A stretch of DNA of 64,000 nucleotides, from positions 1 through 64,000 of the forward strand of contig JADCJE010000137.1 of NCBI GenBank assembly GCA_020247305.1. Direction: 5' to 3'. The translations under genes were made by a program, and so were the position numbers. The notes under the pieces were generated by a model. That model searched no databases. It was not told the origin of the DNA and saw only the letters and a list, made by a program, of their open reading frames with translations. This document shows positions 43,435 through 53,774 of this stretch, in pieces (positions within the stretch are counted from its first letter, which is position 1; every line of letters starts with the position of its first letter). Source of the stretch: Phycisphaerales bacterium (lineage in GTDB: Bacteria; Planctomycetota; UBA1135; UBA2386).

Positions 43435-43976
43435 GACCGGCCCCGGGCGGCCAGCCACCGGTCGAGCAGCAGCAGCCCAGCCATCGACTGGCCGTCGCCG
43501 ACTTCCTGGTCGACCACGAGTTCGCGCGCCGCGGCGAGCGGCAGGCGATGGGCCGTGATGCGCTCGCTCGGTTCGAGGCGCTGCGGCACGACCGTCAGCC
43601 CGCGCGCGACGAAGAACCAGCAGCGCTCGTTCGACACGCCCTTGTACGGCGCGAAGCTCCCCAGCGGCTCCCAGTCGCTCGCGACGAGACCAGCCTCCTC
43701 GGCCAGCTCCTTGCGCGCGACGTCGAGCGCCGGCTCGCCGGGCTTCATGCCGCCGATCGGGAACTCCCAGAGGTCGCGGCCGAGCAGGTAGCGGTGGACG
43801 CGCACGACGACGGTCGTGCCGTCGTCGAACAGCGGGATCGCCGCGGCGCTGCCGGGCATGTCGACGTAGTAGTACTCGCCGATCGTGCCGTCGGTCTGCA
43901 CGTAGCGGTCGCGCCGGTACCGGTGCCACGGATTGTCGACGAGGACCTCCGTCGCCACGCGGTCGAACGGCTTCAT
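43431..43976 (-). CDS. Nudix hydrolase (ADP-ribose pyrophosphatase-like)
   Basis: 181 residues with an intact Nudix box, GGMKPGEPALDVARKELAEE: Gly75, Glu81 and the ELAEE glutamates at 90, 93, 94 are all present. This contrasts with the inactive Nudix regulator at 20002. The N-terminal YVQTDGTIGEYYYVDMPGSA and PIGGMKPG region is typical of ADP-ribose/ADP-sugar hydrolases. Sits between bamA and the LOG gene with overlaps on both sides, which pairs a nucleotide-sugar hydrolase with a nucleotide base-releasing enzyme. Confidence 0.92.
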   Translation of the reverse strand: MKPFDRVATEVLVDNPWHRYRRDRYVQTDGTIGEYYYVDMPGSAAAIPLFDDGTTVVVRVHRYLLGRDLWEFPIGGMKPGEPALDVARKELAEEAGLVASDWEPLGSFAPYKGVSNERCWFFVARGLTVVPQRLEPSERITAHRLPLAAARELVVDQEVGDGQSMAGLLLLDRWLAARGRS

Positions 43977-46708
43977 CGCTGCCCCATCGAGAACCAGAGC
44001 TGGCGGCGGTCGTCGGACTGCTCGTACTGCCAGGGCCAGCCGAGGTCGATCGCGATCGGGATCTGGAAGAACGGCAGTTCGATGCGGAAACCGAAGCCCG
44101 ACGAGAGGCGCACCTCGCCGAAGGTCGGGTCGTCGAGGTCGAGTCCGAGCATGCCCACGTCCGTGAAGACGAGCCAACGCAGGACCTCGCGGTCGCGCAC
44201 CTCGCCGGGCATTCGCGTCGCCACCAGCGGGAAGATGACCTCCGCGGTGCCGGTGACGATGGCTTCACCGCCGTACGGGCGATCGAACTGCTTCGGGCCG
44301 GCGCGGCGGAAGTCGAAGCCGCGCAGGTTGTAGCCGCCCATGTAGAAGCGCTCGGTCAGGAACACGTCGTCGCTGCCGCCGAAGGCCTGGGCGACGCCGA
44401 ACAGGCCGTCAAGGTGCAGCACGGTCGGGTGCCCGGCCTCGTTCTCGCGCAGGCGCACGTAGACGTTCGTGCTCTGCGTGAACTTCACCAGGCTCTCCTC
44501 GCCGCCGAGCGGTCCGCCGACCATCTCGACGTTCGCCGTGGACTCGAAGCCCGACGTCGGCCGCATGACGTCGTCGTAGTCGCGATAGCGGCCGAACACG
44601 CGGACGGCCCGCAGTTCGGTCTGGCCTTCGGCGTCGAACGCGAGCTCGGTCGCGTCGACCGCCAGCGACTCGACGGTCACGGCGTCCTGGCGGACGCCGA
44701 AGCCGGCGTTGAGCTCGTCGCTGAAGTTGTGCGAGAGGGCGACGTCGGCGCCGAGCGTGTCCGACGTGTAGCCGTCCGGCAGGCGCTGGATGCGCTTGCG
44801 GCCGGCGAGGCGCAGCTCCCACGTGTCGAGGTGCTGCACGAAGATGTCCGGCTCCGTCCAGGCCAGCGTGTAGGTGCTGAAGCGGGTGCCGGGCGACGCG
44901 ATCATCTCCAGGCGCTGGCCGCCGCCGTGGAAGGCCTCGTTGCGGAAGATCTCCGAGAAGCCGGTGATCGGGTTGAGCGACGAGGGCGGCTTCCAGAGGT
45001 CGAAGTTGTTCTTGGTGAACTCGATGCGGCCGATGACGCCCTGGCCCGTGCTGATGCCGACGCCCCAGTTGAAGCTGCCGGTGTTGCCGTCCTTGACGTC
45101 GACGGCGACGTCCACCGCCGCCGGGTCGCCCGCCACCGGCTCCAGCTGCAGACGAGGTCCCTGCTGCGAGATCGGGTCGTTGAAGTAGCCGGTCTGCTCG
45201 ACGAGCCGCTGCGAGCGCTTGACCTCGCCCATGTCGATGCGCTCGCCCGGCTGGACGCGGAAGCGCCGACGGACGACGCGATCGCGGGTGAAGCGGTTGC
45301 CGCGCACGATCACGTCGCGCAGGTTCTTCGGCACGCCTTCGCTGACGCGGAGGACGATGTCGACCTCGTTCGCGACCGTGTAGGTCTCCGCCGGCGGCAG
45401 CACACGGCAGCCGCCCTGGACCCGGTCCATGCCGGGGAAGCTCTGCGGCGGGTGGCCGCGCTTGCCGTAGTAGTCGAGGATCGCCTGGATGTCGCGCTGC
45501 AGCTTGTCGCCGTCGTAGAACTCGCCGGCAGCGACCTTGGTCAGGGCCTGCAGTTCGGCGACCGGGTAGAGCGGCGGCGTCGCCAGCGGCGCGCCGACGC
45601 CGTCGACGTGCTCGATGCGCAGCGAGCGCACGCGGTAGCGCGGCCCCTCGACCACGACGTAGGTGAGGTCCACCATCGAACGGTCCTCGGTGAACACGGC
45701 GTCGAGCAGGTCGACGGTGGCGTCGAGGAAGCCGCGCTGGCGGTAGAAGACCCGCAGCCGGTCGATGTCCTCCTCGACGACTTCGCGGCTGAAGGCGTCG
45801 CCCGAGAGCAGGCCGCGCGCCGGCTTGGCCTCGATGGAACTGTCGCGCAGCAGGTAGTCGTCGGCGCCGAGGAAGCCGAACACCGGATCCGCGGCGAAGC
45901 TGGCGTTGCCGAGGAAGCGCACGGAACCGATGGTGACCTTCGGCCCTTCGTCGACGCGGAACCGCAGCCGTCCCGGCGGCCTGCCGGCGGCGTCAGGGCG
46001 CGCCGGTGCATCGTCGTCGGCGGCGCCCGGCAGCTCCTCGATCACCACCTCGGCGTGCGCGTAGCCTTCGCGCCGGTAGCGCGCGAGCAGCACCTTGCGC
46101 ATCGCCTCGGCCTCCGGACGCGTGATCTGGATGCCGGCGTGCACGCCGAGCAGCGCGTCGACCGTGGCGCGGTCGAGGTGGTCGAGGCCGATGTAGTCGA
46201 GGCCGACGAACACCGACTGCTCCAGCAGCACGACGTACGTCACCGCCACGCCGTCGCCCTCGGGCGCGACGAAACCGGCGACGATCGCGCGGCGATTGCG
46301 CCACAGTTCGGCGCAGTCCTCGGAGACCATGCGCGGCTCGAACGACTGCCCGACCCGCGCCGCGAGGCCGCGCACGTACGCGGCGGCTGCCTCCGGGGTC
46401 ATGCGCTCCAGGTCGCCGCCCGCGATGCGGTCGATGCGCGTCTCGCCGCGGCTGCGGGCGAAGGCGACGGACACGATCGGGCGGCCGGCGAGACGCACCA
46501 CCGCCTGGTCGTAGACGACCTCCTCGTCGCCCTGGCGGGCGCCCGGCTGCACCGGCACGCCGGGTCCCTGCGGCGTCTGCGCCAGCGCGCACGGCATCGC
46601 CACCGCGTGCGCGACGGCGAAGGCCAGCAAGGTCGTCCACCGCCCGCCGGAACGGCGGCGCGGCGGCCGATCACTGCATCGGCTCGGCCCTGCGGGTGTA
46701 GTTCTCAA
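43973..46708 (-). CDS. bamA: BamA/Omp85 outer-membrane assembly protein
   Basis: 911 residues. N-terminal signal peptide (TTLLAFAVAHAVAMPCALAQ), then a series of POTRA domains (for example VTIGSVRFLGNASF and LRDVIVRGNRFTRDRVVRRRF) and a C-terminal Omp85 barrel beginning near GVIGRIEFTKNNFDLW, with the barrel motif RFYMGGYNLRGFDFRRAG. Inserts beta-barrel proteins in the outer membrane. The first ~20 residues before the signal peptide come from a TTG start at 46708 that overlaps dnaB by 38 bases; the true start may be a few codons later. Its stop overlaps the Nudix ATG. Confidence 0.9.
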   Translation of the reverse strand: MRTTPAGPSRCSDRPPRRRSGGRWTTLLAFAVAHAVAMPCALAQTPQGPGVPVQPGARQGDEEVVYDQAVVRLAGRPIVSVAFARSRGETRIDRIAGGDLERMTPEAAAAYVRGLAARVGQSFEPRMVSEDCAELWRNRRAIVAGFVAPEGDGVAVTYVVLLEQSVFVGLDYIGLDHLDRATVDALLGVHAGIQITRPEAEAMRKVLLARYRREGYAHAEVVIEELPGAADDDAPARPDAAGRPPGRLRFRVDEGPKVTIGSVRFLGNASFAADPVFGFLGADDYLLRDSSIEAKPARGLLSGDAFSREVVEEDIDRLRVFYRQRGFLDATVDLLDAVFTEDRSMVDLTYVVVEGPRYRVRSLRIEHVDGVGAPLATPPLYPVAELQALTKVAAGEFYDGDKLQRDIQAILDYYGKRGHPPQSFPGMDRVQGGCRVLPPAETYTVANEVDIVLRVSEGVPKNLRDVIVRGNRFTRDRVVRRRFRVQPGERIDMGEVKRSQRLVEQTGYFNDPISQQGPRLQLEPVAGDPAAVDVAVDVKDGNTGSFNWGVGISTGQGVIGRIEFTKNNFDLWKPPSSLNPITGFSEIFRNEAFHGGGQRLEMIASPGTRFSTYTLAWTEPDIFVQHLDTWELRLAGRKRIQRLPDGYTSDTLGADVALSHNFSDELNAGFGVRQDAVTVESLAVDATELAFDAEGQTELRAVRVFGRYRDYDDVMRPTSGFESTANVEMVGGPLGGEESLVKFTQSTNVYVRLRENEAGHPTVLHLDGLFGVAQAFGGSDDVFLTERFYMGGYNLRGFDFRRAGPKQFDRPYGGEAIVTGTAEVIFPLVATRMPGEVRDREVLRWLVFTDVGMLGLDLDDPTFGEVRLSSGFGFRIELPFFQIPIAIDLGWPWQYEQSDDRRQLWFSMGQR

Positions 46709-48020
46709 AACGCATGTACTCGCGGAAGAACCGCAGGACGACCTCGCCGGTCGGGCCGTTGCGCTGCTTGGCGATGATGATCTGCGCCAGGCCGGCGTTC
46801 TGCTCGGTGGGTTTGTAGTAGTCGTCGCGGTGCAGAAGGATGATGACGTCGGCGTCCTGTTCGATGGCGCCCGACTCGCGCAGGTCGCTCATGCGCGGGC
46901 GATGGTCGTCGCGGTTCTCGACGTCGCGATTGAGCTGCGACAGCGCGATCACCGGCACCGACAGTTCGCGGGCGATGCTCTTCAGGCCGCGCGAGATCGC
47001 CGAGATCTCCTGCTGCCGGCTCTCGAAGCGACCGCCGCCGGACATCAGCTGCAGGTAGTCGACCACCACCATGCTGATGCCGTGCTTCTGCTTCAGCCGG
47101 CGGCACTTGGCGCGCAGCTGCGTGATCGAGATGCCGGGCGTGTCGTCGACGTAGATCGGCGTCTCGTACAGCTTGGCCGCCTCTTCCTGCAGGCGCTTGT
47201 ACTGCTGGTCGGTGATCCGGCCCTTGCGCATCGCCGCGCCGTCGATCTGCGACCGGCAGCAGAGCATGTTCTGGATGACCTGCTGGTTCGACATCTCCAG
47301 CGAGAAGAACGCGATGCCGGCGCCGAGGTTGGCGACGCGCTCGGTCAGGTTGAGCGCGAAGGTCGTCTTGCCCATCGACGGACGCGCCGCGATGATGATC
47401 AGCTCGCCGGGCTGCAGGCCGCCCGTCATGTCGTCGAAGTCGTAGTAGTCCGTGCCGAGCCCGGTCAGCCGGCCCTCGCGTTCGCGCAGCTTGTCGATGC
47501 GCTCGAAGGTGCTCTGCAGCACGTCGGCGATGCTCACGGCGTCGCCGTTCTTGTCCTGACGCGCGATCTCGAAGATCTGCCGCTCGGCCTCGTCGAGCAG
47601 GTCGCGAGCGTCGAGTTCGTTGTCGTAGGCCTTGCGGGCGACGTCGAGGCATGTCTCCAGCAGCCGTCGCTGGATCGACTTCTCGCGCACGATCTCGGCG
47701 TGGTAGACGACGCCAGCGGCGGTCACCACGCTCTCGACGAGGTCGAGCAGGTGCTCGTGGCCGCCCGCTTCCTGCAACCGGCCCTGCCGCGACAGGTCCT
47801 CGCCGACGACGATCGGGTCGGTCGCGTGCCGCTCGTTGTAGGCGTTGACGATCGACTGGAAGACCAGTTGATGCCGCGGCAGGTAGAAGTCCTCCGGCTT
47901 GAGGAAGGCGACGTCCACCACGGCGTCGGCGTGCAGCAGCAGCGCGCCGAGAACGGAGCGCTCGGCTTCCAGGTTCTGCGGCACACCGCGCCCGTCGAAG
48001 GTCTGCTTGAAGTCCGCCAT
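46671..48020 (-). CDS. dnaB: replicative DNA helicase
   Basis: 449 residues. N-terminal DnaB domain (VPQNLEAERSVLGALLLH), a linker, then the RecA-like motor: Walker A ARPSMGKT (212-219), Walker B MVVVDYLQLMSG, and SDLRESGAIEQDADVIILL. It unwinds DNA at the replication fork. Length and order are standard. ATG start. It lies between the motor-less FtsK-like gene and bamA in a minus-strand run; a DnaA-box-like 9-mer is in the upstream spacer but stands alone. Confidence 0.96.
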   Translation of the reverse strand: MADFKQTFDGRGVPQNLEAERSVLGALLLHADAVVDVAFLKPEDFYLPRHQLVFQSIVNAYNERHATDPIVVGEDLSRQGRLQEAGGHEHLLDLVESVVTAAGVVYHAEIVREKSIQRRLLETCLDVARKAYDNELDARDLLDEAERQIFEIARQDKNGDAVSIADVLQSTFERIDKLREREGRLTGLGTDYYDFDDMTGGLQPGELIIIAARPSMGKTTFALNLTERVANLGAGIAFFSLEMSNQQVIQNMLCCRSQIDGAAMRKGRITDQQYKRLQEEAAKLYETPIYVDDTPGISITQLRAKCRRLKQKHGISMVVVDYLQLMSGGGRFESRQQEISAISRGLKSIARELSVPVIALSQLNRDVENRDDHRPRMSDLRESGAIEQDADVIILLHRDDYYKPTEQNAGLAQIIIAKQRNGPTGEVVLRFFREYMRFENYTRRAEPMQ

Positions 48021-48160: not shown

Positions 48161-49951
48161 TCACACCAGGATCCGGCCGTGCGTCGCCTCGGCGTCGAGC
48201 GCAACGATGCCGCGCGCGGCCAATTCGACGAGCACCGCCGCGGCGAGGTCGTAGTCGATCCGCAGCTTGCGCTGCAGGAAGACCGCATTCGCCCGGCGCG
48301 TGGCGAGGACGAGTTCGACGGCTTCGCGCATCAGGACTTCGTCGGGCGCGCCGGGCCGCGACGCGATCGCCGGCTCGGGACGCGGAATCGTCACGATCGG
48401 ATCCTCCGTGTCGGCAGGCGCCACCAGCGACACGGTTGCTGGTGGCGTCGACGCCTCGGCGTCGTGGCGGATCGGTTCCTCGGCCGGAGCCGCTGCAGCC
48501 GTGCCCGCTGCAGGGCCCATGCCGATCGCGTCCGAGCCGGAGCGCGCCGTCTCGGCGTCCGGCCACGGTTCCGTACGGGTCGGCATGCCGTCTGCCGCCG
48601 CTTCGGCGTCATTGCCGCCAGCGGGCCACCGCGCATCGTCGTTCGCCAGCGCAGGAACTTCGGCGTCCGCCGCAGTCGTCGCGTCGGTCACCCCAGCCGT
48701 GCTCTCGGCGCCGATCGCCGCATCGGCATCCCCTGCGGCTGGCGCATCCGTCACCTCGTCGCGCCACGGCGAGCCGTCGAAGCGCACCGCCGCGGCCAAC
48801 GACGGCGGCACGGCCTCGGTCGCGTCGACCGCGTCGACCGCATGCGGTCCGGGATGCAGTTCCGGCCCGACCTCTTCCGCCGCCGACGCGCCAAGCGCCG
48901 CCGCCGCGGACCACTCGACCGCGGCGTCGAAGCCCGTGGCGCGCGGCGGTTCGGTCGCGTCCGGGAACACGATCGGGGCGCGCGCCGGCGCGGCATCGCT
49001 CGCAGCGGCGGACGCGGCATCGTCGCCGCGATCGAGGGCCTCTGCCTCCTCGGCGTCGACGGCGGCAGCGTCCTTGCGTTCCGCGGCGTCGATCGCCGCG
49101 ACGACACGGGCGGCGCTGAGCGCATCGTCCTGCGCCGCTGCAGGCGCGCCCGACGCTGCATCCGCGGCGTCGATCGCCGCCGCCGCGTCGGCTGTCGACG
49201 CCGATCCGGCCGCGCTGCCCGGCTCGCTCCAGCGCGCCGACGAGGCGACGCGCTCGGCGCGACGTTCGTAGTAGCTGCGCCGACGCCATGCCGGCGCGTC
49301 GTCGGCCGGCGGCGTGCCGCCTTCGGAAGCGGGCTCGGACGGGTTGGACTCAGCCGCTGGAGCCGGCGCGAGCGACGGCGCTCCCGCCGCGGCAGTCGCG
49401 ATCGTCGGCGCCGAGGCGCGCTCGACCGGGCCGCCGACGAACATGCGTTCGAAACTCTCGTGGAAGAAGAAGTCCGTCGCGAGCAGCAACGACGCGAACG
49501 TGAAGCCCCAGATCACGACCAGCGTCGGCCAGTACCCGACCGCCGCGACCATCGCGCCGGCGAGCCACGCGCCGAGCGCGCCCTTGTGCAGCGCCGGCGC
49601 GACGCCGCCCTCGCCGAGGTTGAGCAGCACGCCGAGCAGGACCGCCATCGCGGCGAGTCGACCGAGGCGCTGCAGCGGTCGATCGAGGCGGCCGTGCACC
49701 AGCCAGATCGTGCTCCAAAGCACCACGAGACCGAAGAACATCACCGCCGGCGCGAAGCCGAACGTCCGGTAGAGCGCCGCATACGCGTGCTGGAGCGCCG
49801 AGCGCACCTCGAAGCCTTCGTGGCGCAGGTGGTAGAAGACGAGGGCCGACAGCGAGAAGGCGGCGACGGCCATCGGCGCGAAGGGCCACAGCCAACCGGG
49901 GCTGCGAGTGGACGGATCTGGCGGCGCGTTGCCGAAGGTGTTCGAGGTCAT
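48161..49951 (-). CDS. motor-less FtsK-like membrane protein with gamma-type winged helix
   Basis: 596 residues. Residues about 18-165 form four membrane helices in a layout like the FtsK N-terminal 4TM domain (LWPFAPMAVAAFSLSALVFY; APAVMFFGLVVLWSTIWLV; AAMAVLLGVLLNLG; PTLVVIWGFTFASLLLATDF). Residues about 170-535 are a long linker rich in Ala, Asp, Glu and Thr. Residues 537-596 match the FtsK gamma winged helix, ending GRILV, and align without gaps to residues 811-870 of the FtsK encoded next to it, about 19 of 60 identical. There is no Walker A/B motor. The recognition helix that in FtsK reads YTRATRLLEMM is YDLAAAVLVEL here, so DNA contacts used for KOPS reading are lost. 121 bases after ftsK, likely same operon. 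Confidence 0.8.
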   Translation of the reverse strand: MTSNTFGNAPPDPSTRSPGWLWPFAPMAVAAFSLSALVFYHLRHEGFEVRSALQHAYAALYRTFGFAPAVMFFGLVVLWSTIWLVHGRLDRPLQRLGRLAAMAVLLGVLLNLGEGGVAPALHKGALGAWLAGAMVAAVGYWPTLVVIWGFTFASLLLATDFFFHESFERMFVGGPVERASAPTIATAAAGAPSLAPAPAAESNPSEPASEGGTPPADDAPAWRRRSYYERRAERVASSARWSEPGSAAGSASTADAAAAIDAADAASGAPAAAQDDALSAARVVAAIDAAERKDAAAVDAEEAEALDRGDDAASAAASDAAPARAPIVFPDATEPPRATGFDAAVEWSAAAALGASAAEEVGPELHPGPHAVDAVDATEAVPPSLAAAVRFDGSPWRDEVTDAPAAGDADAAIGAESTAGVTDATTAADAEVPALANDDARWPAGGNDAEAAADGMPTRTEPWPDAETARSGSDAIGMGPAAGTAAAAPAEEPIRHDAEASTPPATVSLVAPADTEDPIVTIPRPEPAIASRPGAPDEVLMREAVELVLATRRANAVFLQRKLRIDYDLAAAVLVELAARGIVALDAEATHGRILV

Positions 49952-50072: not shown

Positions 50073-52973
50073 TCACTCTGCCGTCGGTCGCGCGTCGGGA
50101 GCGAAGGGCGGAGCGCCGCCGAGGGCGGCGTCCGGCGCGTCGTCGTCGTCGTCGTCGGCAGCGGCAGCGGCAGTCGCCGCCCCCACTGGGACCGCACCCA
50201 CCCCGGCGTCGTCGCGCTCGCCGTCCGTCGCCTCGGCGACGCCGTCGGCCAACGCACCGGTCGACAGCGCATCGCCTTCGGCCGGTTCCCCGTCGTCCAC
50301 TTCGCCCGTCGCGTCCTCGGCGCCCTCGGCCGAATCCTCGCGCGCGAGGTAGTCGTCCCAGGTCATCAGCACGTCGCGCGACTTGCTGCCGACGAACGGT
50401 CCGACGAGACCGTCCTCCTCCATCATCTCGAGCAGGCGCGTGGCGCGCGTGTAGCCGACGGCCAGCGCCCGCTGCAGCAGGGTCGCCGAGCCGCGCTGCG
50501 ACTGCAGCACCACCTCCGCCGCCTTGCGGTAGAGGTCGTCGCGATCGGCGACCTTCGGGCGCGAACTGGACTGGGTCTGCACCAGTTCCGGCGTGAAGTG
50601 CGGCTGCTGCCCGCGCTCCTCCAGGAACGCGATGACCTTGTCCTTCTCGTCGTCGGTGACGAACGTGCCCTGCGCGCGCAGCAGCGCGCCGCCGCCCGGC
50701 GGCATGTACAGCATGTCGCCATGGCCGAGCAGCTTCTCGGCGCCGTTGACGTCGAGCACGATGCGCGAGTCGAGCTTGCGACTTACGCGGAAGCAGATCT
50801 GCGTCGGCAGGTTCGACTTGATGATGCCGGTGATGACCTCGCTGCTCGGCCGCTGCGTCGCCAGGATCACGTGCATGCCGACGGCGCGCGACTTCTGCGC
50901 CAGGCGCTGGATGTGCTCCTCGACCTCGTTCTGCGCGACGGCCATGAGGTCGGCGAACTCGTCGATGACGATGACGACGTACGGCAGCTTGACGCGGTCG
51001 GGCTCGGGCTCGCGCTGCAGACGCTTCTGCAGCTCCTGCTGGCCCAGGCGGTTGTAGTTGCGGATGTGGTTGACGCCCACGGCGGCGAGCAGCGCGTAGC
51101 GGTTCTCCATCTCGTCGACGGCCCACTGCAGCACGCCCGCGGCCTTCTTCATGTTGGTCACGACGTCGCAGCAGAGGTGCGGCACCCGCTTGTACGACTG
51201 CAGTTCGACCATCTTCGGGTCGACCAGGATGAGCTTCACCTGCTCGGGCGTGCGCGTCATCAGGATCGACAGCAGGATGGTGTTGATGCACACCGACTTG
51301 CCGGAACCAGTCGTGCCGGCGATCAGCAGGTGCGGCATCTTCGCCAGGTCCTCGACAATCGCGTTGCCGGCGACGTCCTTGCCCAGGTACAGCGGGATGG
51401 CGCTGTCCTCGGAGCGACCGAACGTGTCGAGGAGCTCGCGCATGAACACCTTCTGGCGCTCGGCGTTTGGCACCTCGATGCCGACCGTGTCCTTGCCAGG
51501 GATCGGCGCGACAACGCGCACCGACACGGCGCGCAACGCCGCGGCGAGGTCGCTCTCGAAGCTGGTGATCTTGTTGACGCGGATGTCGGCGCCCAGGCGC
51601 AGCTCGTACTGCGTCACCGCGGGGCCCACCGACGCGGCGACGACCTCCGCCTGGATCTCGAAGTGCGCCAGCTTGTCGATGATCGCCTGGCTGTTGCGCT
51701 GCAGGGACTCCTCGGTGACGGCTGCGTCCTGGTAACCCGGCTCCTGGAACAGGTCGACCGGCGGGAACGGATACTCCTCGAACGGCAGCGCCTGCGCCGC
51801 CGGCTTGGGCTTCGGCTTGGGCTTGGGCTTGGGCTTCGGCTGCAGCACGACCATCGGCTTCGCCGGCGTCAGGACGACCGGTTCGGCGACCGGTGCGGCC
51901 TTGGGCGCATCGGCGGCCGGTTGGGCGACGGCTGGCGGCGCCGCCGCGGCGCCTGTCGCCGGTGCGCCGCCTGCATCGCCGTCGTCGTCGGCGTCCTCGT
52001 CCGCCGCGCGGCGGCGGCGACGGCGCGACGGCTTGGCGGCGCCGTCGCCGGTTTCGTCGCCATCGCCGCTGCCGGCGACGTGATCGGCAGCGCCCGCTTC
52101 GACCTCGTCGTCCGCACGATCGTCGTCTTCGTCGTCGTGACCACCACCCGAGCGCGCGTCGCCCTTCGCGACCGCGACGGACCTGCTGCCGCGACCGCGC
52201 GACGGCGCGACGGCGACGCCGTCGTCTGCCTCGTCGTCCGCCGCCTCACCGTCGCCCGCCGCGGCCGGCGTCGCCGCCTTGCGGCGCGCGCGCGGCGTCG
52301 GCGCGTCTTCGTCGTCGCGCAGACCGCCGAGACCGGCGAGCGCCGCGGCCGGACGCTTCCACGCGCGCCGGACGAACCCGTCGAGGGCGGCGACGACGCG
52401 CGCGACGAGCTGCGAGAACAACCACTCGGTCGCGATCATCAGGCCCATGACCGCGCCGAACAGCACGATCAGGACGCGCCCCGTGCTGCCGAAGCCGGCT
52501 TCGAGCCGCGGCGAGATGACGCCGCCGAAGACGCCGCCGGCGCCGTACGGCGTGGCGGCCGTGCGGCCGGCGTGGCCATCGCCGCCGGCGAACAGGATCG
52601 CCAGCATCGCGGCGAACACCACGGCGCCGAGCGCCTTGATCGTCGGCCGCGCCATCGGCTTGCCGACGAACACCCCGATCGCGCCGGCGAGCAGCATCGC
52701 GAACGGCACCCAGCCGGCGAGGCCGAGCGAGCGGGCGAAGCCGTGCGCGAGGTGGTAGCCGACCGCGCCGCCGAGGTTGGTCATGCTGCCGGAGGGGATC
52801 GGGCCGTCGAGGTCGGCGAGGCGGAACGTCGCCAAGCTCAACATCGCGAACAGCGCGAAGCCGGCCAGCGCCAGCGCCACCACCTCGCGCGCCCGCTGCG
52901 ACAGCGGCCCGCGGCCGCCTGCGCTCGGGGCCCGCTTCTTCTTCGCCGTCTCCACGGTGTCGTTCTTGCTCAC
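50073..52973 (-). CDS. ftsK: DNA translocase FtsK
   Basis: 966 residues. Four membrane helices at about 31-190, a long linker with KPKPKPKP repeats (380-391), then the alpha/beta motor: Walker A GTTGSGKS (553-560), Walker B VVIVIDEFADLM (666-677), ATQRPSSEVITG. The gamma winged helix is at 811-870, and a strongly acidic tail follows to residue 966. FtsK pumps DNA at the division site and directs XerCD dimer resolution. The start is GTG with GAGAGGG upstream; it overlaps the coaB stop (GTGA). Confidence 0.95.
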   Translation of the reverse strand: MSKNDTVETAKKKRAPSAGGRGPLSQRAREVVALALAGFALFAMLSLATFRLADLDGPIPSGSMTNLGGAVGYHLAHGFARSLGLAGWVPFAMLLAGAIGVFVGKPMARPTIKALGAVVFAAMLAILFAGGDGHAGRTAATPYGAGGVFGGVISPRLEAGFGSTGRVLIVLFGAVMGLMIATEWLFSQLVARVVAALDGFVRRAWKRPAAALAGLGGLRDDEDAPTPRARRKAATPAAAGDGEAADDEADDGVAVAPSRGRGSRSVAVAKGDARSGGGHDDEDDDRADDEVEAGAADHVAGSGDGDETGDGAAKPSRRRRRRAADEDADDDGDAGGAPATGAAAAPPAVAQPAADAPKAAPVAEPVVLTPAKPMVVLQPKPKPKPKPKPKPAAQALPFEEYPFPPVDLFQEPGYQDAAVTEESLQRNSQAIIDKLAHFEIQAEVVAASVGPAVTQYELRLGADIRVNKITSFESDLAAALRAVSVRVVAPIPGKDTVGIEVPNAERQKVFMRELLDTFGRSEDSAIPLYLGKDVAGNAIVEDLAKMPHLLIAGTTGSGKSVCINTILLSILMTRTPEQVKLILVDPKMVELQSYKRVPHLCCDVVTNMKKAAGVLQWAVDEMENRYALLAAVGVNHIRNYNRLGQQELQKRLQREPEPDRVKLPYVVIVIDEFADLMAVAQNEVEEHIQRLAQKSRAVGMHVILATQRPSSEVITGIIKSNLPTQICFRVSRKLDSRIVLDVNGAEKLLGHGDMLYMPPGGGALLRAQGTFVTDDEKDKVIAFLEERGQQPHFTPELVQTQSSSRPKVADRDDLYRKAAEVVLQSQRGSATLLQRALAVGYTRATRLLEMMEEDGLVGPFVGSKSRDVLMTWDDYLAREDSAEGAEDATGEVDDGEPAEGDALSTGALADGVAEATDGERDDAGVGAVPVGAATAAAAADDDDDDAPDAALGGAPPFAPDARPTAE

Positions 52974-53626
52974 GTCGTTGCCCTCTCCCGCCACAGTTGC
53001 ACGGCAGCGGCGACGATCCGCGTCGCCGCCGCATCCTTGCCGCCGCGAGGCAAGGCCTCGTCGCGGCCGTCCGCATGACACAACACGAAGTCCGCCTGCT
53101 CGCTGCCGATCGCGTCGTGCAGGTTGACGACGACCAGGTCGAGGCCCTTGGCGACGAGCTTGCGCCGCCCGCGCGCGATCGCCGCCGGCATGCCTGCGGC
53201 CGCCGATTCGAGGCCGAAGCCCGCGACGACGCGGCGGCCCTTCTTCGCGGCGAGGCCAGCGACGATGTCGGGGTTGGCGACCAGCTCGAGCGACTGGCCG
53301 CCGCTGGCCGGCTTCGGTGGCTTGCCGGGCGCGCGGCGCGCCGGCCGCCAGTCGCTCACCGCGGCGGCGGCGATCACCACGTCGGCCGCGGCGAAGGCGC
53401 GCTCGGCGGCGGCCTGCATCTCCAGGGCCGACACCACGCGCACCACCGCCGCGCCCGCCGGCGGCGAAAGTTCGGTGGGACCGAGCACGAGGGTCGGCTG
53501 GTGGCCGGCGGCGAGCGCCGCGACCGCGAGGGCAAAGCCCATGCGGCCCGAGCTGCCATTGCTCAGGTAGCGCACGTCGTCGAGGTACTCGCGGGTCGGG
53601 CCCGCGGTGATGAGGATCGCAACCAT
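52970..53626 (-). CDS. coaB: phosphopantothenate-cysteine ligase (CoaB domain only)
   Basis: 218 residues: AILITAGPTREYLDDVRYLSN at the N-terminus (CoaB nucleotide motif), IAAAAVSDWRPARR, LELVANPDIVAGL and VAGFGLES, all CoaB motifs. It joins phosphopantothenate and cysteine in CoA synthesis. Only the CoaB half is here; the CoaC decarboxylase usually fused in bacteria must be a separate gene. ATG at 53626. Its stop overlaps ftsK's start. Confidence 0.93.
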   Translation of the reverse strand: MVAILITAGPTREYLDDVRYLSNGSSGRMGFALAVAALAAGHQPTLVLGPTELSPPAGAAVVRVVSALEMQAAAERAFAAADVVIAAAAVSDWRPARRAPGKPPKPASGGQSLELVANPDIVAGLAAKKGRRVVAGFGLESAAAGMPAAIARGRRKLVAKGLDLVVVNLHDAIGSEQADFVLCHADGRDEALPRGGKDAAATRIVAAAVQLWRERATT

Positions 53627-53774
53627 GCCCCCGGTGCATCCCGGTCCAGACCGACCGGAACCGCCAGTTGGGCATCGTAGTAACAGTCTTTCCACAGTGG
53701 AGAAAAAAGACCCCCGCATCCATAACGGCGGGCAGATTGGTGACCTTGGACCCGTGCGCCGCGAGCCTCATCCC

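Follow-up and report, generated by a model that had tools for sequence, protein, structure and literature searches.

FtsK is a DNA pump, and FtsZ is the usual division protein. The FtsK/SpoIIIE translocases combine a membrane domain (4TM), an alpha domain, a Walker motor and a C-terminal gamma domain (PF13491, PF17854, PF01580 and PF09397). In the E. coli gamma domain (2J5P), residues Q1288, R1289, R1292 and N1296 touch XerD, and all four belong to the larger set of residues that contact DNA (PMC5052618, Table 1). The E. coli substitutions R1300A and E1303A impair KOPS reading and support Xer recombination (PMC2680272), and this gamma domain can activate recombination independently of the motor when it is fused to XerC or XerD (PMC5052618). 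A gamma-KOPS complex has been determined for P. aeruginosa (2VE8/2VE9). Gamma domains without an FtsK motor have been described in phages, both as single FtsK_gamma ORFs and in the small terminase of Sam46/Sam112 (PMC8190038). Separately, QxxLF is a published general sliding-clamp binding motif found in DnaE, PolC and other proteins (PMC12309361).

The 64,000-nucleotide stretch of DNA analyzed here (the window) encodes, beside its ftsK, a second protein of FtsK descent, here named T. Sequence comparison shows T to be a motorless FtsK paralog that is conserved and arose once. T shares homologous 4TM and gamma domains with the FtsK/SpoIIIE translocases and its gene adjoins ftsK, but it has no alpha, beta or Walker A/B, its KOPS residues are lost in the window's order, and it forms a clade apart from all FtsK. 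Its gamma domain has the same winged-helix fold as the E. coli and P. aeruginosa domains (about 32% identity over 57-63 columns); however, it carries D, L, A and V at E. coli positions N1296, R1297, R1300 and E1303, and it is attached to a motorless membrane protein. The phage proteins likewise hold a gamma without an FtsK motor, but their genes are not beside ftsK, no 4TM is reported for them, and the Sam46 gamma keeps its DNA-binding sites (PMC8190038). Six PHROGs families, made up of phage proteins whose function is mostly unknown, match the gamma of window T (48164-48343); thus motor-free gamma proteins exist in phages too. Many T proteins resemble the known clamp binders in carrying QxxLF within a disordered stretch, whereas the papers searched included no clamp binder derived from FtsK, and window T is without the motif. 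The open-access literature searched yielded no description of a motorless FtsK paralog, in line with the preliminary description, which knew of no system of this type.

The window's ftsK, T and dnaB genes all lie on the minus strand, with 121 nt between the ftsK stop and T and 140 nt between T and dnaB. A gamma model run against genomic DNA gave only two matches in the whole genome, T at 37.3 bits and the true ftsK at 84.5. The DFP (coaB-like) gene before ftsK forms with it a pair that is widely conserved among relatives, and in family f1, which includes the window genome and its sister, dnaB and bamA follow T throughout, wherever the contig extends that far. The separate ORF, the same layout in dozens of genomes and purifying selection rule out a misassembly, a pseudogene or read-through from ftsK.

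Table 1 Features of the T locus (window coordinates unless a contig handle is given)
Feature	Position	Strand	Description or basis
Motorless FtsK paralog T	48161..49951	(-)	596 aa, ATG start
FtsK-type 4TM membrane domain of T, residues 24-172	49436..49882	(-)	hhalign, PF13491 in relatives, pLDDT
Long disordered acidic/Ala-rich linker of T, residues 173-536	48344..49435	(-)	pLDDT, composition
Linker motif ending I-P-R-P, residues 516-525	48377..48406	(-)	Alignment of relatives
FtsK gamma winged helix of T, residues 537-596	48164..48343	(-)	PF09397, PDB sequence matches, Foldseek
Recognition helix of T, residues 567-579, YDLAAAVLVELAA	48215..48253	(-)	Alignment to E. coli FtsK gamma
True ftsK	50073..52973	(-)	4TM, alpha, Walker motor, gamma (PF13491, PF17854, PF01580, PF09397)
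coaB-like gene, upstream of ftsK	52973..53719	(-)	PF04127 DFP
dnaB replicative helicase, next downstream of T	46671..48020	(-)	PF03796, PF00772
bamA-like outer membrane assembly gene, after dnaB	43973..46708	(-)	PF01103 and four POTRA stretches
Small ORFs of f18, weak gamma-like C-terminal domains	L202:3490-3921, L202:4027-4455

FtsK_gamma was the sole Pfam domain matched in window T (residues 538-588; 32.5 bits, the cut-off being 30.6). PF13491 gave no match to window T alone, its N-terminal domain being too diverged; the same family matches 11 of 41 T relatives, and PF09397 matches 40 of them. Homology of the membrane domains was established by a profile-profile comparison (hhalign) of the 4TM regions of 41 T and 42 FtsK proteins, which returned a probability of 99.4 and an E-value of 2.4e-20 across 165 columns; a reversed control gave 0.4. 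In an AlphaFold2 model of T, run with the 41 relatives, the membrane helices span residues 24-43, 66-86, 92-113 and 140-172 with pLDDT mostly above 90, and the bundle exceeds 90 in most blocks from residue 21 to 150. The gamma winged helix reaches about 95, while the linker stays mostly below 50. The composition of this linker, about 350-360 aa long, is 32% Ala, 17% D+E and 6% K+R. The PRP of its tabulated motif is invariant in 17 relatives of the family; QxxLF follows it in most relatives and is absent in window T.

The last 60 residues of window T align without gaps to the gamma domain of the neighboring FtsK with 18 identities, compared with a mean of 5.3 and a maximum of 14 in 20,000 shuffles. 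A PDB sequence search with T gamma returned 2ve8, 2j5o and 5dcf. In the PDB, the best eleven Foldseek matches to T were all chains of FtsK gamma, among them 2VE9, a complex with KOPS; TM scores (on target) were 0.70-0.84, rmsd 1.9-3.0 Å and identities 31-34%, with probability 1.00 for 2j5p, 2ve8 and 2ve9. Their E-values are weak (0.01-0.5) because gamma is a small part of the query. No Walker A was present in window T, and neither PF01580 nor PF17854 matched it. An FtsK motor profile, run with filters off against every T, found no match in any copy, which rules out a hidden or degenerate motor in the longer T proteins (up to 1364 aa). T is without alpha, beta and Walker A/B and is therefore without translocation; since no motor was found, it falls outside the translocase family, though it is built from FtsK parts. 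The preliminary description had already placed beside ftsK a protein with four membrane helices, a long acidic and Ala-rich linker, a C-terminal FtsK gamma alignable without gaps and no Walker motif. Gene order, the model, the profile comparison, composition, the alignment and the motor search support each of these points, and its proposed fold check on the last 60 residues returned the FtsK gamma fold.

To evaluate the distribution of T, genomes were surveyed for a second gamma. Among 60 relatives, a second gamma match occurred in families f1-f4 and f6-f8 and was absent in all eight sampled f5 genomes, and a wider sample of the class agrees with this division. Within the order, most of the families sampled have T immediately after ftsK. 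Outside the order, 42 genomes among 197 of the phylum had at least two gamma matches, and a sample of 80 families revealed a T-type ORF, in every case without motor trace, in about 14 further families (f11, f14, f25, f31, f33, f39, f41, f51, f59, f60, f66, f68 and f70, with f18 differing). T directly follows ftsK in 69 of 87 cases, the remainder being mostly contig-end cuts; in f7 and a few others it has been relocated away from ftsK. Within the contig L056 of genome G020, which is unbroken over this stretch, about 6 kb separate ftsK from T (L056:5740-12018). In f18, two gamma-only ORFs of about 143 aa stand in tandem after ftsK and are not full T. An over-diverged T gamma in the single-gamma lineages f5, G087 and G104 was ruled out, as other genes follow ftsK there: a radical-SAM/TRAM protein gene takes the place of T in f5 and a LeuA-type synthase gene in G104. 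The named relatives are Planctomycetota MAGs. In one scan of named genomes, full T occurred only in planctomycete MAGs, apart from an unclassified bacterium and a mislabelled-looking Singulisphaera, both identical to genomes already among the relatives; the remaining loci were true FtsK or cut contigs. The 96 genomes surveyed from the phylum of a Verrucomicrobia bacterium contained no tandem second gamma. The neighborhood survey thus answers the preliminary description's question of whether the gene is confined to one strain: it is conserved across the order and the phylum.

A tree of 4TM plus gamma placed 57 T proteins on one side of one branch with an SH-aLRT of 86, which is moderate support from a quick search. 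At this level of support, the single T clade disfavors several independent motor losses. Branching within T largely mirrors that of FtsK (window and sister, then other f1, then f6, with other families apart), and this agreement points to long co-inheritance. The absence of a motor from every copy, together with one clade that follows FtsK, indicates one ancient duplication. These patterns fit a history in which ftsK was duplicated once, close to the root of a large part of the phylum, and T was then inherited vertically and lost several times. Comparison of window T with that of the sister genome gave dN/dS values of about 0.32 for 4TM, 0.34 for gamma and 0.49 for the linker, which indicates that T is under purifying selection. 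It is extremely unlikely that T is a decaying duplicate without function. Fast linker drift (42% identity to the sister) and an internal stop in the T match of G019 would suit decay, but T is kept beside ftsK across about 20 families and dN/dS is close to 0.3 in both domains.

Gamma residues with assigned roles in E. coli were then compared between T and FtsK. In window T, Q1288, R1289 and R1292 are kept as Q560, R561 and R564, just upstream of the recognition helix; the preliminary description had reported that helix as altered, and the four replacements given above agree with it. The FtsK proteins of the order hold Q1288, R1289, R1297 and R1300 invariant (51/51). The T proteins of the order keep Q1288 in 45/53 and R1289 in 48/53, but R1297 in only 3/53 and R1300 in 5/53, with E or D frequent instead; the E1303 position is still E or D in 18/53. 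With R1297 and R1300 lost, T gamma in the order is therefore KOPS-blind by residue criteria. Outside the order, R1297 is kept in 12/32 T proteins and R or K stands at 1300 in 18/32, which leaves DNA binding as a possible older role. T may alternatively act as a membrane DNA tether: its gamma would still bind DNA, with a changed sequence preference or none, and would hold part of the chromosome close to the division site with no pumping. The winged-helix fold is intact, R1297, R/K1300 and E/D1303 are often kept outside the order, and Q1288/R1289 belong to the DNA-contacting surface of FtsK gamma (PMC5052618). However, both recognition-helix arginines are lost in the window's order, often with a gain of acidic residues, gamma net charge is -2 in window T versus 0 in its FtsK, and the linker is acidic. 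We consider a tether of this kind fairly unlikely.

Because Q1288 and R1289 also contact DNA, their conservation singles out no protein partner. A motor-free activator or brake of Xer recombination was evaluated, in which T gamma would bind and switch an Xer recombinase at the septum without KOPS-guided pumping. XerC/D-type recombinases occur in 61/61 relatives, the XerD-contacting Q1288 and R1289 are kept, R1292 is present in f1 T, and the E. coli fusions cited above activate recombination with no motor present. On the recombinase side, counterparts of E. coli XerD E184 and Y187 were absent in both XerC/D-like recombinases aligned from the window genome; XerD binding is therefore not readable from sequence. 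The f5 genomes have XerC/D without T, and T is therefore dispensable for Xer in general. Together, these points leave an Xer switch an unlikely role.

Just before gamma, many T proteins carry a QxxLF motif, typically RQQxLFG or similar. An exact QxxLF lies no more than 45 residues before gamma, mostly 8-14 away, in 42/85 T proteins against 0.23 expected from shuffling, and in 0/81 FtsK at the same place; elsewhere in T linkers it is rare. By family, it occurs in 28/31 of f1, 7/7 of f6 and 4/4 of f14, and f6 and f14 count as independent cases because the motif was first noticed in f1. Most other families are without the exact form. The replicative DnaE encoded in these genomes shows this form of the motif at its usual place (RGQKMLF in the window genome; RGQNLLFGG and SGQNSLFGG in others). 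The motif is absent in window T, its sister and one more f1 member, having been lost from window T and its sister. This makes clamp binding a lead at the level of the family rather than for window T. That T serves above all to tether the DnaN clamp to the membrane, with gamma as a secondary contact, would accord with the enrichment, the DnaE-like form of the motif and the adjoining dnaB in f1. Gamma, however, is kept everywhere, whereas QxxLF is missing from those three f1 proteins and from most other families, which makes a clamp tether above all very improbable.

The best explanation, in which our confidence is evenly balanced, is that T belongs to the FtsK complex as an accessory subunit that is anchored in the membrane and does not translocate. 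Its gamma would dock a partner and, in many lineages, the clamp as well. The preliminary description had proposed a dominant regulator or anchor of FtsK complexes that may bind XerD; the single ancient origin, the range across the phylum, the losses in some families and the QxxLF motif had escaped it. T would have originated a single time, early in the history of Planctomycetota, when ftsK was duplicated in tandem and one copy shed the alpha-beta motor together with its Walker sites. The FtsK-type 4TM would anchor T in the inner membrane, most probably next to FtsK where the division site closes; the 4TM may also serve localization alone, with no joining of FtsK. The long acidic linker would give gamma a far reach into the cytoplasm. 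In the window's order, gamma would have moved past KOPS reading to dock a protein partner, with an Xer recombinase and FtsK itself as candidates. In most family members, the QxxLF peptide by gamma may also hold the sliding clamp, which would connect the FtsK complex with replication or with newly made DNA. That f5 and other families live without T counts against the accessory-subunit reading.

The lineage had been described as one that often divides without FtsZ, and this stands as far as the relatives go: FtsZ was found in 0/61, while the same search was positive in 13/14 controls. In Planctopirus limnophila, ftsK is essential (PMC10632474). A more specific, and rather doubtful, proposal is that mixed complexes of T and FtsK couple the replication clamp to the division site in FtsZ-less Planctomycetota, a link that would have evolved once and, in certain branches including the window's, disappeared or been rewired. 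If true, this would be a replication-to-division link made of FtsK parts. As a second protein derived from FtsK and passed on together with ftsK in much of the phylum, T is a concrete new candidate component of the machinery in these bacteria. T also separates naturally the membrane domain and gamma from the pump, which is hard to do in E. coli. It further suggests that gamma is convertible into a docking module and that a clamp motif can be added beside it.

Two further variants were observed. In G145 (f16), one contig holds two FtsK C-terminal pieces, one of them gamma-truncated (L196:3028-6548), and the pair looks like a broken ftsK duplicate. In a subgroup of f1 (L059, L074 and L077), T gamma is without its last wing and the proteins end in ...RGLMGTDS or ...RGLVSDDHDRS.
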